DNA of 5,991 bases from Promethearchaeota archaeon (GTDB lineage: Archaea > Asgardarchaeota > Lokiarchaeia > Sigynarchaeales > SOKP01): positions 1 through 5,991 of the forward strand of contig JAGXNZ010000080.1 in assembly GCA_019894655.1 (NCBI GenBank), given 5' to 3'. Below, piece by piece: positions 150-5,742 of the stretch (positions are counted from its first letter, which is position 1; every line of letters starts with the position of its first letter). The notes under the pieces were generated by a model. It searched no databases. It had not been told where the DNA came from and saw only the letters and a list, made by a program, of their open reading frames with translations. A program made the translations under genes and the position numbers.

Positions 150-173
150 AAAAAAAATAATAAAAAAAAAAAA
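150..173 (-). terminator. Poly-T terminator after the Cas12-like gene
   Basis: Read on the minus strand there is a run of twelve T (162-173) and then one of eight T (150-157), starting about 12 bases after the stop codon of the Cas12-like gene. Archaeal RNA polymerase typically stops at such U-tracts. The 7-bp stem at 184-205 sits directly before the first tract, so the arrangement also resembles an intrinsic terminator. Confidence 0.6.
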
Positions 174-180
174 TAATGCG

Positions 181-195
181 CTACTTTACCTATTA
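181..195. repeat. 15-bp direct repeat, 3'-side copy at the Cas12-like gene
   Basis: CTACTTTACCTATTA here matches CTATTTTACCTATTA at 3064-3078 with one mismatch, in the same orientation. This copy contains the stop codon of the Cas12-like gene. The pair encloses this gene and nothing else. It may be a target-site duplication, a recombination site or a functional signal. Confidence 0.6.
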
Positions 196-205
196 GTCGG
201 TAAAG
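184..205 (-). other. Small hairpin overlapping the stop codon of the Cas12-like gene
   Basis: CTTTACC (184-190) and GGTAAAG (199-205) are perfect inverted copies around an 8-base loop. The stem covers the last codons and the TAA stop. With the T-tract that follows it may be the gene's terminator. It could also be part of a structured 3' RNA: guide RNAs of TnpB relatives are commonly encoded at this place. The sequence alone cannot separate these roles. Confidence 0.4.
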
Positions 206-3062
206 AAACATTTAATTCAACTACTTTTTGAGCATTTATTTGAGACGCATTTTGATGTCTGTTGGTATTTTGTCTGTATTTAGTACAATTAGAGTCAGAA
301 CAATAAGAAGTTAATTTGCCAACTTTTTTCATTGATTTTTTACCACAGCAACCGCAAATACTGCTAGTATAAGGCGACGGCTCAAAAATTTTAAAATTTC
401 CTTTTCCGTAAATATCTTCCAACCATTCGTTAAACAACCCTTTTAAACCATCTGCTCTGGGTAAATAAGTGACAATTTGAGCTAATTTCCCACGCAAACT
501 TTTGGTTGTTATTTTTGAAATATCGTCCCATCCAAAATTTCTCGCACCGATTTTTCTCCCAACATACGCAAAAAGCATAACAAATTTAATTCCGAAGTTT
601 TTATATATGCGTTGTGCTTTTTTTTGAAGAAGCTGGATTCTAAGGATATTTCTAATAATTATAACGGAAGGTGGGGGGTTCTCTTTTTTATAGTTTTTAC
701 TCTTTGGTACAAAGTTGGCACTTTTTACTCGTTCAAACAAACTCTCGGTGTAAATAATTTTCATCCTAATATTATTCTCATTACATTCGTTTTTCTCGGC
801 TCTTAACAATCTTTCTGCTGTATTTTTAACTGTTAATGGTATTTTTAAAAAGCTATATTTCTCAAAAATCTCTTTTTGATAATTAGCTATACGATTTCGG
901 TATTTCTCAAGTTTTTTTTTTATTTCTACAAAACCAAGTTGTCGTGCAAGAGAAGTTATATCTAACTGCTGTTTTGGTGTACCGACTGACAAAGCATATT
1001 CTCCTAATTCGTTAAAATCAGAGCCTAAAGTTGTAGATTTTATATTGGTTAATGGATTTCTTCTCGATTTGTCAAGGAGTTTAAAATATTTGGTAGGATG
1101 TTTAAAAGCATCTCTGGATTTAGAGCCAAGAACAACATGAAGAGGGACTTTATAATAGGGGGTTTTAGGAACTCCAATTGTCATTGATACAATATCTGCA
1201 CCGTTGTTTAAACACTCAATTATTTTTTTAGTCGGACAAAAAAGCAATCTGCTAAAAGTTCGTGTACGATTTTCCGATGTAATTAGACCACTTTTACTGA
1301 TAAACTCTTTTTTATACAACGGAAAGTCCAAATAAATATCTGTTTCTTTTGCTCGTATTTTATCAGAAACAACTTCAAAATTCTTAATAGGAACTTGACT
1401 CCCGTTCTGTTTAAATATTATAGGAGAATTGTATACATTTACAAATGAAATTTTATTGTTTGTACGATTGGGAGAGTGAAACGGAAAGGTCACGCATTTA
1501 CTCGGATCAAACCCATTCAATTTTTTAACAATGCCAGAATTACCGAAATAATTATATTTTCTGGAATATGCGAATGCAATTATCCCACGCAAAGCTGTGA
1601 ACAATTTATTATATTTTATCGAATTACTCTCCAAAATTTTCGCAAAGGCTTTTGTAAATTGCTGTCCTGCGAAATAATGCTCAAAAATATGTGTATATTT
1701 TTTTTTAATTTTTTTATTTTCTATTAAATCATCTCGTAAATATTCTATTTTATTTTTAAAAGTTTCTGTATTTTTACGGTTTTCATTTTCTAATCGATTT
1801 AAACTCTCATTAACATGATCTAAAAAAGTAGAAATAGCATTTTCTAAATCGTTATAAGTAATTTTAACTGAATGTTTGAATAATTCATTTTTATTAAACT
1901 TCAAAAGATATTCTTGGAAATTTTTAGTTCTAATAATATCCAAACCTTTTTTTGCCTCAAGACTATTTAAAATGAAGTCAAAATCATAATCTGTGTTATT
2001 TAATAAATGGAGCATTTTATAGCGTTCTAGAGTTGAAATAACTTTATGTAAATTAGTATCTGGTTTAAATTTTCTTAAATAATCTCCAAAAGTGTGATAA
2101 ACTCTATTAAATTTGTCAAGCTGTAAATTTTTAGGAAAAGATTTTTCTAATTTGCGTCTCCAACCCACTAAAGTGTTTCTAACCCAAACTGTACTTAGTC
2201 CTCTCCAACGACTAGAAATAACAGTCCTTAAAAACCCACTCACTTGTCCGAATGTCAAAAAAGTGGCAATAGGCTCTCTGAGTTCGGAATCATCTAAATA
2301 GTTAAAAAACTTCTTAACTTTCCCTATAGAATCACGATAAGCCAATAGTAAAGGTCTAATGTGTTTATCAAATGTTAAGCGTAGAAATTTCCCTTTATCT
2401 TCATTGTTGTTATATGATCTATATGCAATAATAAATTGTTTCATATATCTCCCTGATTCATCGCTAAAAAACCAATATTTCTTTCCACTACCGTTTAGAT
2501 ATTCGGTTAATTTTAACCCAATACCAGAACGAGCCCCGTAAATCTCTTTGATAAACCTAAAAATATCCACAGCTTGACGATTAAAATGGGTATTTAAAGT
2601 TAAAACAGAATTCTTAACTTCCATCCGCCTTGTGTTTAGCTTCTCTTTACAATTCTCTATATAGCAATCTACCATCTCTTTTTTCTGAATTAGAGAATCT
2701 TTGGCTAATGTTTTATAAAACTCATAAATTTTATAATAGATTTTCTTTAAATCAATTTTTGCGTTTCTAATATTAATATGTCTAGCTAAGTCTTCAAAAG
2801 AATGAGAACTTTTTCTTAACAGATAAACGATAACTTCATTGTGACGCACATAATCGGTTAAATCATCGGTAAATTCGGACTTCATTGAGGCGTCATAAGT
2901 TCTAAGTATTTCTATGTCTTTTCTTGCTAAAAAAATATCTTTTTTTATTTCTTTTTTAGGAAGGTCAATTCGAAAAGTTGATCTGTTATTATTGTCGTCA
3001 ATAGCACAATGAAAACTTATATCATCGTCAATAGCACAATGATTAGGTTTTTTTGTGTCCAT
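186..3062 (-). CDS. Cas12/TnpB-like protein, predicted nuclease-dead RuvC
   Basis: A 958-residue protein of the Cas12/TnpB superfamily of RNA-guided nucleases, in the Cas12 size range rather than that of a 400-residue TnpB. The N-terminal half is Lys/Glu/Asn-rich and mostly helical, as expected for REC lobes, with a likely coiled coil near residues 402-452. A more beta-like stretch follows around 500-620. RuvC-I aligns at IVSMTIGV with Thr628 where Asp is expected. RuvC-II aligns at FVMLFAYV with Ala832 in place of Glu. A TSSICGCCG zinc finger follows (C903, C906, C921, C926). RuvC-III is NRHQNAS, His936 replacing the Asp of DRDxNAA. Family members with an intact triad cut DNA; with all three residues lost this one probably binds a guided target without cutting, like Cas12k or the TldR repressors (inference). 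The ATG at 3062 follows AATAGGT, a weak ribosome site. The first residues contain a tandem HCAIDD repeat. No array, adaptation gene or transposon partner is nearby. The family is fairly sure; the subtype is not. Confidence 0.8.
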   Translation of the reverse strand: MDTKKPNHCAIDDDISFHCAIDDNNNRSTFRIDLPKKEIKKDIFLARKDIEILRTYDASMKSEFTDDLTDYVRHNEVIVYLLRKSSHSFEDLARHINIRNAKIDLKKIYYKIYEFYKTLAKDSLIQKKEMVDCYIENCKEKLNTRRMEVKNSVLTLNTHFNRQAVDIFRFIKEIYGARSGIGLKLTEYLNGSGKKYWFFSDESGRYMKQFIIAYRSYNNNEDKGKFLRLTFDKHIRPLLLAYRDSIGKVKKFFNYLDDSELREPIATFLTFGQVSGFLRTVISSRWRGLSTVWVRNTLVGWRRKLEKSFPKNLQLDKFNRVYHTFGDYLRKFKPDTNLHKVISTLERYKMLHLLNNTDYDFDFILNSLEAKKGLDIIRTKNFQEYLLKFNKNELFKHSVKITYNDLENAISTFLDHVNESLNRLENENRKNTETFKNKIEYLRDDLIENKKIKKKYTHIFEHYFAGQQFTKAFAKILESNSIKYNKLFTALRGIIAFAYSRKYNYFGNSGIVKKLNGFDPSKCVTFPFHSPNRTNNKISFVNVYNSPIIFKQNGSQVPIKNFEVVSDKIRAKETDIYLDFPLYKKEFISKSGLITSENRTRTFSRLLFCPTKKIIECLNNGADIVSMTIGVPKTPYYKVPLHVVLGSKSRDAFKHPTKYFKLLDKSRRNPLTNIKSTTLGSDFNELGEYALSVGTPKQQLDITSLARQLGFVEIKKKLEKYRNRIANYQKEIFEKYSFLKIPLTVKNTAERLLRAEKNECNENNIRMKIIYTESLFERVKSANFVPKSKNYKKENPPPSVIIIRNILRIQLLQKKAQRIYKNFGIKFVMLFAYVGRKIGARNFGWDDISKITTKSLRGKLAQIVTYLPRADGLKGLFNEWLEDIYGKGNFKIFEPSPYTSSICGCCGKKSMKKVGKLTSYCSDSNCTKYRQNTNRHQNASQINAQKVVELNVSLPTNR
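2995..3042 (-). repeat. Two 18-bp direct repeats, 30-bp period, inside the Cas12-like gene start
   Basis: The 18-bp word TCGTCAATAGCACAATGA occurs at 2995-3012 and 3025-3042. The 30-bp period keeps the reading frame and gives two copies of HCAIDD in residues 8-22. The 12 bases between the copies differ from those after the second copy, so it is not a simple recent duplication of the whole unit. Confidence 0.8.
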
Positions 3063-3063
3063 T

Positions 3064-3078
3064 CTATTTTACCTATTA
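3064..3078. repeat. 15-bp direct repeat, 5'-side copy at the Cas12-like gene
   Basis: This is the partner of the copy at 181-195 and differs from it at one base. It ends 2 bp before the ATG of the Cas12-like gene. On the coding strand it reads TAATAGGTAAAATAG, so it also supplies the only ribosome-site-like bases (AGGT). Confidence 0.6.
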
Positions 3079-3112
3079 TGTATAGTATATTTATATATAT
3101 AGTATAGTATAA
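3079..3112 (-). promoter_or_regulatory. Very AT-rich promoter region of the Cas12-like gene
   Basis: The stretch is almost pure A/T, with repeated ATACTATAC words and a central TATATATA tract roughly 30-45 bases before the ATG, a fitting place for an archaeal TATA box. The repeated words could also bind a regulator. It begins exactly where HsdR similarity in the neighbouring fragment stops, so it may have arrived together with the Cas12-like gene. Confidence 0.45.
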
Positions 3113-3517
3113 TTCTTGTGCAATTTTTTTCAGGGTTTCATCACCCATGAAATCCACGGCACTTTTATTAGTAGTGAGAGCATCATAAAAAGCAATCTCA
3201 TCGTCGTTCATCCCTAAATCTTCTCCTCTATTCTGAGCTTTTTGAATCTCTCTTGCTAATTCTAGTAATTCCTCAAGTATTTCTGCTGCCTCAATAGTTC
3301 GATTTTCATACTTAATTATTGCTTTCTTTAACAATTCAGCAAAAGACCTTGATTGTACTAGATTTTTTTTAGCACGAGACTTTATTTGATCATTGAGAAG
3401 TTTATTTAATAACTCCACGGCTAAATTTTTATGTTCAAGCCCCTCAACTTCTTTGAGAAAGTGTTCAGAAAGTATTGAGATCAGAATTATTGGACCGGTA
3501 ATTAGTTTTCCAATCAT
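3110..3517 (-). pseudogene. hsdR: C-terminal fragment of type I restriction subunit R
   Basis: From about position 3475 leftwards the translation reads LSEHFLKEVEG, KNLAVELLNKLLNDQIK, AEILEELLELAREI and DDEIAFYDAL, then GDETLKKIAQEL. This is the pattern of the C-terminal helical domain of HsdR, the motor and nuclease subunit of type I restriction-modification. Full HsdR proteins are near 1000 residues; only about 120 remain. The nuclease and helicase domains are absent upstream. The expected ending after the AQEL motif, which includes a conserved R-x-N-x-T-x-D-W segment, is replaced by AT-rich sequence encoding YYTIYIN. The frame runs on to 3017 and overlaps the start of the Cas12-like gene. 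An ATG at 3517 opens the frame, but its first 13 or so residues do not look like HsdR. It is most likely a decayed remnant; expression as a small protein cannot be excluded. No HsdM or HsdS is present. Confidence 0.7.
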
Positions 3518-3846: not shown

Positions 3847-3981
3847 CTAACTTTGTTTCTTTACAAATTTAGGGATCTGAGTATTTTTCTCAAAATATTT
3901 TAAGTAAGTAACAGGATTCTTTTTCGCCACCCATAGCTCAAAGGTGCCACTCAGCTCTCTATTTCTAATAGGTCTTGCGTT
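3847..3981 (-). pseudogene. Frameshifted C-terminal tail of the PD-(D/E)XK-like gene
   Basis: The frame one base over from the nuclease-like gene continues without a stop through 44 residues, including RPIRNRELSGTFELWVAKK and NPVTYLKYFEKN, to a TAG at 3847-3849. It joins the upstream gene at an A6 run on the coding strand (3980-3985). Removing one A fuses the two into a protein of about 221 residues. The balanced composition (WV, P, G) argues for real coding sequence. It may be a true frameshift mutation, a homopolymer sequencing error or, less likely, a +1 frameshift site. Alternatively it is a piece of an unrelated gene. Confidence 0.45.
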
Positions 3982-4513
3982 TTTTCTCCTCTGCTTGATA
4001 CTTTTGAATTAGATTTTGTAACTCCTCATCAACTACAACTTTATCATCCTGATTATGTGCATCTAATTTTTCACCTATTATAACTTCATCATATAGAATT
4101 GGTTCTCTAAAATAAATCTGGTCTTTATCTACATTAGAATCTGGGTTAATGACAGATATAGCATCAAATTTCATTGAATCTTTATTAGTATTTAACCATT
4201 CTAGAGCATCTAAATGGATCTTATGGAATCTTTCAGAAATCCAGATTATCTTAGAAGCATTACTACCCATCGCATAAGATATAATTTGTCCTAAGTGCTT
4301 GAAATCTGAAACACCAAATTGATTTTCAATAGCAACTATATTTCCACCCTCTTCTTGGGCCATAATATCTAACTTTTTGCCTTCAATATCTTTTTCTGTA
4401 GATAATAATATAAGATCAGTATGAATAACTTGAGTTAATTTACACAAATTCTTGCTTAACCAAGGAGTAAAGTTAAGTGCTTCATTTTTAAATATCTCAC
4501 GAATAGATCTCAT
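3965..4513 (-). CDS. PD-(D/E)XK nuclease-like protein
   Basis: A 182-residue protein resembling the restriction-endonuclease-like N-terminal part of proteins often annotated with DUF4268. It opens with REIFKNEALNFTPWLSKN, then has KKLDIMAQEEGGNIVAIENQF. This gives Glu11, Asp49 and Glu63-x-Gln65, the D...ExQ variant of the PD-(D/E)XK active site usual in this family, followed by LGQIISYA and KIIWISERF. Such proteins are common as single genes in archaea and bacteria and are presumed DNA nucleases; their substrate is not clear to me. The C-terminus is charged (AEEKKRKTY) and ends abruptly after an A6 run, where a one-base change would add about 40 residues. The ATG at 4513 lacks a clear Shine-Dalgarno site. 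A TATATT about 28 bases upstream would fit a nearly leaderless transcript. It stands alone, divergent from the BrxL fragment. Confidence 0.65.
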   Translation of the reverse strand: MRSIREIFKNEALNFTPWLSKNLCKLTQVIHTDLILLSTEKDIEGKKLDIMAQEEGGNIVAIENQFGVSDFKHLGQIISYAMGSNASKIIWISERFHKIHLDALEWLNTNKDSMKFDAISVINPDSNVDKDQIYFREPILYDEVIIGEKLDAHNQDDKVVVDEELQNLIQKYQAEEKKRKTY

Positions 4514-4606: not shown

Positions 4607-4810
4607 GGTTTATTAAAATTACTTTATCCCGACAAGAATTTTAATCTTGAAGATCTAGAAGAATGTGTAAAGCTAGCACTAGAATTCAGGCGCAGAGTAA
4701 AGGAGCAGCTTAAAAAGATGGGTTCGGTTGAGTTCCGTAAAACAAATTTTTCATACAAAAAAATAATTGATAATCAAGAGATTTATGTAAATACACCCGA
4801 AATCGCCTAA
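4607..4810 (+). pseudogene. brxL: C-terminal fragment of the BREX Lon-like protein BrxL
   Basis: The frame is open from just after a TAA at 4604-4606 to a TAA at 4808-4810. It reads GLLKLLYPDKNF, LEDLEECVKLALEF and RRRVKEQLKKMGSVEF, then NFSYKKI. This matches my recall of the conserved C-terminus of BrxL, with its RRRVKEQLKKxG and NFSY signatures. BrxL is the Lon-protease-related AAA+ protein of BREX phage-defence systems. The intact protein is near 670-700 residues; only 66 remain, without ATPase or protease-like domains and without a start. No other BREX gene is in the window. The fragment ends exactly where the duplicated GTPase-flanking sequence begins (4811), so this is a rearrangement joint. 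It is on the opposite strand to all its neighbours. Confidence 0.65.
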
Positions 4811-4887
4811 TGATTCCGCATAGTCATCCTCATAGAACTCAAATACGAATTCTTCTTCTTTACTATCCTTTTCTGAGGTCAATATTG
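4811..4887 (-). pseudogene. Acidic FEFY fragment, copy downstream of the GTPase
   Basis: On the minus strand, after a TAG stop, a frame reads TSEKDSKEEEFVFEFY and EDDYAESLGD and then crosses into the antisense of the BrxL fragment, where similarity to the other copy is lost. At 4811-4872 it matches 5671-5732 at most positions, and both copies encode VFEFY-x-(D/E)(D/E)-Y-A-x-x-L. A TTG in front of TSEKD is the only possible start. It looks like a broken piece of a duplicated small acidic protein or tail. The rest of the gap up to 4995 shows nothing more. Confidence 0.45.
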
Positions 4888-4995: not shown

Positions 4996-5523
4996 TTAAA
5001 TAATATTATCCCTTTGGAGCATCAATCTCGTTAAAGTTTTAAAAACTTCCTCTACATTTTCACCAGTTTTGGAGCTACATTCAATAAAGGCATCAATATC
5101 TCTTGATTTAGAAATATTTATACCTTCTTTAGCCGTAATTTCTCTTTTATCAGTGAGGTCGCCTTTACAACCCACAGCAACTATAGGAATTAAAGAGCTA
5201 GTTTCTTTTTTCACCATACTTAGCCAATCATCAATATGGGCTAAAGAAAAATAATTAGTGATATCATACATAAATAATCCCCCACTTGCCCCTTTCACAT
5301 AAGTAGGTAATAAAAATCTAAAGCGTTCTCCACCACCATAATGCCAGATCTGTAATTTTACTTTTTTTTCATCGACTATAAGGTCTTTTTTTTCGAAATC
5401 AACTCCTATTGTCATAGAACTGTCGGAATCAAATATTTGTTCTGTTTTGGTAAGATTAAGTAAAGTAGTTTTTCCAACTCCAACATCTCCAAACACAATT
5501 ATTTTATAGGTAGCGTCATACAT
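4996..5523 (-). CDS. Ras-superfamily small GTPase, Asgard type, altered G3
   Basis: A 175-residue single-domain GTPase of the Ras/Rab/Arf superfamily, the usual length. G1 is GDVGVGKTT (12-20), the nucleotide-binding P-loop. G2 has Thr38 in MTIGVDF. G3 is WHYGGGERF (60-68). G4 is GCKGDL (118-123) with Cys in place of the usual Asn. G5 is CSSKTG (149-154). The LLPTYVKGASGGLFMYDIT stretch and the Gly-rich G3 resemble the many Ras-like GTPases of Asgard archaea, where WDFGGE-like forms are common. Here the G3 Asp (Ras D57) is His61 and the catalytic Gln (Ras Q61) is Gly65, so magnesium coordination and hydrolysis may be weak (inference). There is no C-terminal CaaX box or other visible lipid signal. 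The ATG at 5523 puts the P-loop at the normal distance from the N-terminus. No GAP, GEF, roadblock or longin gene is visible beside it. Confidence 0.9.
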   Translation of the reverse strand: MYDATYKIIVFGDVGVGKTTLLNLTKTEQIFDSDSSMTIGVDFEKKDLIVDEKKVKLQIWHYGGGERFRFLLPTYVKGASGGLFMYDITNYFSLAHIDDWLSMVKKETSSLIPIVAVGCKGDLTDKREITAKEGINISKSRDIDAFIECSSKTGENVEEVFKTLTRLMLQRDNII

Positions 5524-5574: not shown

Positions 5575-5742
5575 TTATTTTTTTTTCGCCTTTATTATGT
5601 AATTACATAAAACACAATAATAAAAGATTTTACATAATTGTTCTTCCACAGGAGATATCTCTTCTTCTAATAATTTGGCATACTCCTCACCATAGAACTC
5701 AAATACGATTTTTTCTTCTTTATCATCCTTTTTATACTTCTT
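5575..5742 (-). pseudogene. Acidic FEFY fragment, copy upstream of the GTPase
   Basis: The frame is open from just after a TAA (5743-5745) to a TAA at 5575-5577. It reads KKDDKEEKIVFEFYGEEYAK, LLEEEISPVEEQLCK, then a Cys/Tyr-rich end. No ATG or TTG lies before the conserved core; a GTG occurs only at SPVEE. It lies about 50 bases upstream of the GTPase on the same strand and shares its core with the fragment at 4811-4887. It may be the end of a lost gene or a short acidic protein with an unusual start. Its function is unknown. Confidence 0.4.

Follow-up and report, generated by a model that had tools for sequence, protein, structure and literature searches.

An Asgard archaeal TnpB-lineage protein with a predicted D-D-H RuvC site and its probable place in an IS607-type clade

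The stretch of DNA analysed here (the window) comprises the 5,991 nucleotides of contig JAGXNZ010000080.1 from a Promethearchaeota archaeon (assembly GCA_019894655.1) and carries a gene for a large protein of the TnpB/Cas12 lineage. TnpB proteins, the effectors of OMEGA systems, form the lineage that gave rise to Cas12, and both typically rely on a D-E-D RuvC site. An earlier reading, made from the letters of the window alone (the sequence-only reading), had placed the zinc finger and the RuvC strands of this protein and proposed that Thr628, Ala832 and His936 stand where the three acidic catalytic residues should be, so that the protein would bind DNA under RNA guidance without cutting it. 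The locus raises the question of which residues form the RuvC site and whether such a site cuts or only binds. The intact 958-residue frame, the lineage, the zinc finger and RuvC of the C-terminal region and the position of His936 were all borne out; Thr628 and Ala832 were not. The window protein is probably (with a probability of about 0.7) a divergent member of a large clade of IS607-type TnpBs with a D-(E/D)-H RuvC site, a clade that is mostly Asgard as far as named records go, the majority of the proteins carrying no name. The features of the gene are the following:

186 to 3062, minus strand: intact gene of 958 codons for a TnpB/Cas12-lineage protein (fold matches to Cas12f and TnpB; profile match to AsCas12f, E 5.3e-7)
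1014 to 1031, minus strand: RuvC-I strand, residues 678-683, with Asp682 (codon 1017-1019) (conservation, structure model, profile alignment)
525 to 527, minus strand: RuvC-II acidic residue Asp846, at the canonical Glu position (conservation, profile alignments)
255 to 257, minus strand: RuvC-III His936, at the canonical Asp position (conservation, profile alignments)
285 to 356, minus strand: zinc-ribbon cysteines C903, C906, C921 and C926 (alignment and sequence)
1179 to 1181, minus strand: codon of Thr628, variable and non-catalytic (conservation, structure model)
567 to 569, minus strand: codon of Ala832, within a long helix and non-catalytic (conservation, structure model)

The triad of the window protein is, as judged from alignments and a structure model, Asp682, Asp846 and His936 (D-D-H) and not T-A-H, because the conservation within the family and the alignments to Asgard TnpBs and AsCas12f agree on these positions. 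The homolog set comprised 182 proteins (12, plus 120 listed of 131, plus 50 new of 58, each search having scored a limited candidate list) in three groups: the window protein and its close relatives (the window subfamily, n=5), a large group (n=57) and a small group (n=120, about 650 aa). Column 682 is Asp in all 179 rows with a residue there, column 936 is His in 167 of 167 such rows, and at column 846 all 56 such rows of the window subfamily and the large group have Asp, whereas 115 of the 116 small-group rows have Glu, the sole exception (P0115) being a fragment that ends there. Columns 628 (T in 3 rows, R in 56, Q in 113, few others) and 832 (A in 120, L in 51, few others) are variable. 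The invariant columns of the first alignment include D682 (LGSDFNELG), D846 (GWDDI) and H936 (NRHQNA), and RuvC-I reads DFN, DLN or DIN in nearly all family rows shown. A 37-row count comprised 25 of 33 extracted open reading frames (ORFs), the 8 under 300 aa being dropped, and 12 proteins.

Furthermore, a family profile of 77 rows (77 of the 182 homologs, fragments and similar rows dropped) was aligned by hhalign with 16 other Asgard TnpBs (probability 98.0, E 2.8e-13), which are 16 of 24 ORFs, at least 340 aa long, from the 30 best-scoring PF07282 loci. In this alignment Asp682 (LGSDFNELG) pairs with the RuvC-I Asp, Asp846 (FGWDDI) with the RuvC-II Glu (VVIEDL), a pairing that rests on the ten Glu-bearing proteins among the 16, and His936 (NRHQNA) with the RuvC-III Asp (DRDLNA). 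A PDB-sequence search with the family profile matched AsCas12f at the E value listed above, and in the alignment D846 stands opposite the Glu of QMEDL and H936 opposite the Asp of NADYNAA, which we take to be the catalytic E324 and D401; at the RuvC-I end the AsCas12f alignments are off register with the catalytic Asp, and Asp682 was placed by hhalign instead. In the structure model (mean predicted local distance difference test score, pLDDT, 75.7; the ten-residue blocks with Asp682, Asp846 and His936 average 90, 86 and 87), Asp682 lies in strand 678-683, Asp846 just after strand 842-844 and His936 in the first turn of helix 935-953, while Thr628 belongs to strand 623-629, which precedes RuvC, and Ala832 to helix 798-838. 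An earlier model built from 12 sequences was poor (pLDDT 55.1) and was discarded. As a control, RuvC-III is Asp at 30/30 of the best-scoring PF07282 loci (222 Asgard genomes, 183 with a match), loci picked by a PF07282 score that may itself favour Asp.

One catalytic residue is thus swapped for a non-acidic one (Asp to His), and the Glu to Asp change is conservative. Only one of the three substitutions claimed by the sequence-only reading holds, and its inference of a dead nuclease fails because it was premised on the loss of all three acidic residues; the structure model and the alignments find acidic residues elsewhere in the site (Asp682, Asp846), the outcome that this reading had itself named as telling against it. 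By alignment, D-(E/D)-H is a conserved site across the family and not decay. This bears on the very unlikely explanation that the window protein is a decayed nuclease, i.e. a TnpB remnant persisting without selection amid broken defence genes. The fragmentary neighbours (a C-terminal piece of hsdR and an incomplete PDC-S11 match) and the lack of a recognisable RNA element at the window gene would suit such decay, but the frame is intact over 958 aa, four relatives (P0002-P0005) share 76-88% identity with the window protein at near-equal length, the triad and the zinc-ribbon cysteines are kept in 5/5 members of the window subfamily, and the altered triad does not vary within the family.

The assignment to the TnpB/Cas12 lineage came from family-level comparison and predicted structure. 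Taken alone, the window protein gave sub-threshold noise against Pfam, zero matches against PADLOC and NCBIfam and zero PDB matches by sequence, and a PDB search with the first 12-row family profile returned chance matches. The predicted structure has fold matches to Cas12f and TnpB, within a list of Foldseek candidates beyond which other families are possible. PF07282 (cut-off 26.3) scored 26.1-30.8 bits in the four small-subfamily relatives scanned, 25.3 in P0009 and 17.1 in P0006, and gave no match to P0012, P0004 or the window protein. The C-terminal zinc-ribbon and split RuvC, homologous to TnpB, are features of IS607-family TnpB present in the window protein.

Besides the four close relatives, the protein search returned seven at 23-28% identity. 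In a tree of 57 RuvC domains, computed with the three triad columns removed and with 12 of the other Asgard TnpBs as the root (57 of 61 intended rows, four without a found motif being dropped; the bootstrap was not fully settled), the 45 His rows lie on one side of a branch with support 100/98. The tree requires a single Asp/His change, the direction of which is set by the rooting. The window-subfamily proteins are monophyletic (100/100), sit on a long branch (1.84) and group with the large group (99/99). Named relatives come from Borrarchaeota, Sigynarchaeota, Heimdallarchaeota, Thorarchaeota, Promethearchaeota and Helarchaeota, with one (P0173) from Planctomycetota, in line with a mainly Asgard distribution of the relatives. 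Judged from the sequence, the relatives of the protein and the Ras-like GTPase gene listed below point to an Asgard origin of the window. A search with the 12-row profile was positive in 42 of 227 genomes from the phylum to which the genome of a Sigynarchaeota locus (G002) belongs, with no close-range match to the window subfamily among these 227. Two peptide patterns run against 84,980 species matched at three loci, each of them Asgard, and viral contigs, phages and plasmids yielded no relative at the sensitivity used. Among the open-licence papers retrieved, titles and abstract beginnings held no description of an Asgard clade with a His-bearing RuvC; the TnpB survey of Altae-Tran (2023) may include it.

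Several family members have further peculiarities. An HCAIDD peptide is repeated at the N-terminus of the window protein, encoded by two near-identical 23-nt repeats 30 nt apart (2990-3042), and two copies of the HCAI word occur in 3/5 members of the window subfamily, the window protein included. This subfamily also has an insertion between RuvC-I and RuvC-II (residues about 740-800), partly of low confidence in the structure model of the window protein and absent from the seven other relatives of the first alignment. Some members of the large group (P0145, P0146, P0161, P0162, P0168 and P0182) have N-terminal extensions of roughly 250-330 aa, and CBM96, a carbohydrate-binding module, was matched in two of the seven large-group proteins scanned (P0168 and P0182), an odd fusion or an effect of gene calling.

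The family is most likely IS607-like, because IS607 TnpA or its fragments sit at three relatives' loci, few loci having been checked. Indeed, (i) an ORF 0.76 kb upstream of a relative (L013/L045) matches the NCBIfam IS607 transposase at 125 bits against a cut-off of 110, (ii) a TnpA fragment at L041, in one frame with a TnpB N-terminus, has the IS607 transposase as best match (40.8 bits, below the cut-off), and (iii) so does a TnpA fragment upstream of an RNA copy at L104 (62.3 bits, also below it). The relatives lie in repeated, mobile-looking elements. As the excerpted texts of PMC10711439 and PMC11061315 describe them, the right-end RNAs of IS607 elements have pseudoknots and run past the transposon end.

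A comparable RNA element was found at the gene 3' ends of relatives. In large-group genes, a hairpin CCCGT-TTCCTCTAACG-ACGGG lies at or just past the stop codon, and its loop pairs with a downstream GTTAGAG. Over 12 aligned copies, 98.6% of cells pair, compared with 86.7% in shuffles and no more than 44.4% with the partner slid along. Both positions have changed in three stem pairs and in one pseudoknot pair, and the covariation score is 0.299 versus 0.090, with 0/500 shuffles as high. Two of five measures were not above shuffles (double-change pairs, 168/500; further pair types, 311/500). Since the pattern used to pick these copies prescribes the loop box together with its partner, the share of pseudoknot pairs that never vary (5/7) is inflated, and the stem is the stronger evidence. 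The protein C-termini PFPLTTG, PVSSNDG and PLPLSTG can be read as the hairpin in different frames, which would point to selection on the RNA, by back-reasoning for proteins without DNA. In the small group, a like layout occurs at 13/19 loci with other, covarying letters (loop pairings AACGCACGT with ACGTGCGTT, AACACACGT with ACGTGTGTT, and CGCATAC with GTATGCG) and with strands about 52-62 nt apart, in a scan that also yielded some chance matches elsewhere. No Rfam family matched the element in the eight sources searched.

The covariance model of this element (R1) found it in 20 of 227 genomes, with at least 20 matches in one genome. Across 86 within-genome copy pairs, identity falls from 0.89 over the final 20 nt of the element to 0.28 over the 20 nt that follow; as the 28 copies inspected were hand-chosen from model matches and earlier loci, the upstream likeness is there by selection and the drop past the boundary is the informative part. 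A repeated scaffold that ends in a unique flank looks like what is expected of an omegaRNA with a flank-derived guide. TnpB remnants were lacking at 15 of the 28 copies, two of these 15 being too near a contig end to tell. Six solo copies (L088, L095, L102, L103, L105 and L106) are short, share a left-end motif with GACTAGTC and look like non-autonomous transposons resembling miniature inverted-repeat transposable elements. In the small subfamily, 6/6 elements (L021-L025 and L028) adjoin a tRNA-Cys gene, and the putative guide of L022, GCATAGCCGCTTTG, resembles the antisense of part of the adjoining tRNA-Cys, GCATAACGGCTTTG; when further copies of this putative guide were sought, only this resemblance turned up.

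Taken with the active site, these data suggest the following mechanism for the IS607-type clade. The RuvC-III Asp would most simply have changed to His once, at the clade base, and the His would then have been kept. In the relatives, the gene 3' end would encode a scaffold RNA whose hairpin loop has its pairing strand some 30-60 nt further downstream; the insertion flank directly after this scaffold would act as guide. Protein and omegaRNA would together bind DNA that matches the guide next to a target-adjacent motif, and the D-(E/D)-H site would hold Mg at the DNA backbone.

What such a site would then do can be argued either way: cutting or nicking appears slightly more probable than not for D-(E/D)-H proteins, and tight binding without cutting only a little less so. 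Cutting is the usual role of TnpB in mobile elements, and the two invariant acidic residues, together with relatives that look like spreading elements, speak for it here. A His in an RNase H-fold site need not mean inactivity, because Argonautes with a D-E-D-H tetrad slice (PMC10772731, as excerpted); this likeness between the catalytic His of the PIWI site and that of the window family is an analogy only, the guide systems being unrelated. On the other side stands Cas12m2, whose non-canonical H-D-D triad also has a His and an Asp at RuvC-II: it is described in the excerpted text of PMC10442227 as coordinating one Mg and silencing without cutting double-stranded DNA, and reversion to D-E-D restored no cutting (data not shown in that source). 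According to the part of PMC11013384 at hand, Cas12m variants with D-E-D, H-D-D and N-D-D sites all bind without cutting, so that the residue alone would not decide membership in Cas12m. The His of Cas12m2, like that of many Cas12m members, is at RuvC-I, however, whereas the window protein keeps Asp682 there and has its His at RuvC-III; Cas12m2 has a CRISPR array, whereas none was found in the window.

These precedents also bear on a possible, though doubtful, alternative, in which the window protein never cuts and is a stand-alone silencer or regulator comparable to Cas12k, Cas12m or TldR; transcription would be blocked by binding of the target through a guide RNA, and the altered RuvC pocket would hold on to the displaced strand. 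It overlaps the non-cutting branch of the IS607-type reading, and the likelihoods expressed here do not sum to one. The His at a catalytic position, the behaviour of Cas12m, the long branch of the window subfamily and the lack of mobility genes in view at the window copy would all suit it, but the two acidic residues are retained and invariant, Argonautes slice with a His, and the relatives lie in repeated, mobile-looking elements, where TnpB usually cuts. Guided binding without cutting, as proposed by the sequence-only reading, thus keeps a precedent in Cas12m2 and loses its original basis, the triple acidic loss. Stand-alone action fits the window as far as it reaches, while several relatives reside in IS607-like elements with omegaRNA-like RNA.

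Of the systems invoked, Cas12k in CRISPR-associated transposons has Tn7-like tnsB, tnsC and tniQ nearby, and none of the three was found among the four window ORFs scanned. TldR proteins have lost the RuvC acidic residues and use a dedicated guide RNA that targets a promoter; the window protein resembles them in being TnpB-derived, possibly RNA-guided and without a transposase in the window, but its family keeps two acidic residues and a fixed His. Fanzors and pro-Fanzor TnpBs share the IS607-type origin and an altered RuvC arrangement; their RuvC-I motif is DPG, and their Glu has moved to just ahead of the zinc finger (PMC10711439, as excerpted). The window protein differs in reading DFN at RuvC-I and in having its RuvC-II acidic residue at the canonical place, and no conserved Glu stands before the zinc finger in the window-family alignments.

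A rearranged site was seen among the 16 comparison TnpBs. Six of them (L112, L114, L124, L130, L133 and L136) have Gly at the RuvC-II Glu column, the other ten having Glu, and in the same six a Glu precedes the first zinc-finger Cys by seven residues (by eye for L114). Five of the six show D-G-D, which is real and not a misalignment, and the RuvC-III Asp is kept in all 16. This site resembles that of Fanzor, but five of the six show DLG or DFG and not DPG at RuvC-I where it was read.

The clade, with its fixed His and two acidic residues, is a natural test of whether a His-bearing RuvC cuts as the DEDH site of Argonaute does; in the alternative outcome, a single step at the root of a transposon family would have produced guided binding without cutting. 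Its defined RNA scaffold and boundary could serve to reconstitute the complex, and the question of cutting or binding by His-site proteins is now testable.

The window locus itself differs in several points from known IS607-family TnpB loci. The triad D682-D846-H936 departs from the canonical D-E-D of IS607-family TnpB, for which D194/E290/D371 is given for the ISFba1 type in the excerpt of PMC11061315, and the 958 aa of the window protein compare with 384 residues in the ISFba1 chain (ISFba1, ISXfa1 type). No IS607 TnpA was found among the four window ORFs scanned, nor any recognisable copy of the family RNA in the window: the best R1 match had an E value of 0.58 elsewhere in the window and 9.9 at the gene end, where nothing reached E 1 or better. 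The window copy may have a diverged RNA, may use RNA supplied in trans or may be domesticated. The following features surround the gene:

184 to 205, minus strand: 7-bp hairpin CTTTACC-GACTAATA-GGTAAAG over the stop codon (sequence)
150 to 173, minus strand: two T runs, of 12 T and 8 T, just 3' of the gene, terminator-like for archaea
59 to 79, no strand: right copy of a weak inverted match resembling a terminal inverted repeat (TIR) (36/2000 shuffles as good, post hoc)
3066 to 3088, no strand: left copy of this TIR-like match, at or within about 20 bp of the end of hsdR homology
3017 to 3517, minus strand: C-terminal fragment of a type I restriction HsdR protein, incomplete at both ends and immediately upstream of the gene (PF11867, E 4.8e-51, profile positions 149-280 of 329)
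3965 to 4513: partial PADLOC PDC-S11 match, a defence-gene remnant
4996 to 5523: Ras-like GTPase gene (Pfam scan of the window)

The hairpin over the stop codon lacks the conserved box of the family RNA and is a candidate remnant or analogue of the family hairpin; alternatively it may belong to a terminator, T runs being the archaeal form of terminator. Together with the T runs and the TIR-like match it offers leads only. These leads underlie the quite unlikely explanation that the window subfamily was captured by a different, TIR-bearing element whose terminal repeat contributes to the scaffold RNA, an arrangement described for Fanzor1. It would account for the inverted match and for the 10 nt of the stop-codon hairpin that could pair with the right repeat, about 110 nt downstream, but the match is weak, AT-rich and found post hoc, T runs lie between hairpin and repeat, and there is no second copy for comparison. 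A rather unlikely extension of the IS607-type reading is that very large Asgard His-RuvC TnpBs are supplied in trans by numerous scattered omegaRNA loci that each bring a guide of their own, the window subfamily being a domesticated offshoot without RNA of its own; it rests on the abundance of RNA matches in one genome and on the copies lacking a TnpB remnant.

It is highly improbable that the protein is a true type V CRISPR effector, a new Cas12 subtype with its array outside the window. The size and fold are Cas12-like, and an array further off is possible since the window extends 2.9 kb upstream and 185 bp downstream of the gene; but there is no array in the window or at loci L001-L003 (L003 has only spacer-less tandem 24-nt copies), and the relatives have an RNA at the gene end whose flanks are unique and, at three loci, IS607 TnpA or parts of it. 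Indeed, the proposed lack of CRISPR or Tn7-like partners was confirmed for the window: no CRISPR-like array appears among the 20 of 22 direct-repeat families listed, each of two copies, and no cas or Tn7-like gene among the larger ORFs (four scanned with Pfam, three with PADLOC and NCBIfam).

Regarding the neighbourhood, the hsdR fragment and the PDC-S11 remnant suggest a worn defence region. Insertion of the gene into hsdR is unproved, because no hsdR sequence was seen downstream of the gene in the three minus-strand frames of 1-186. Finally, a 66-nt direct repeat, 83% identical and with its copies 860 nt apart (4807-4872 and 5667-5732), flanks the Ras-like gene.

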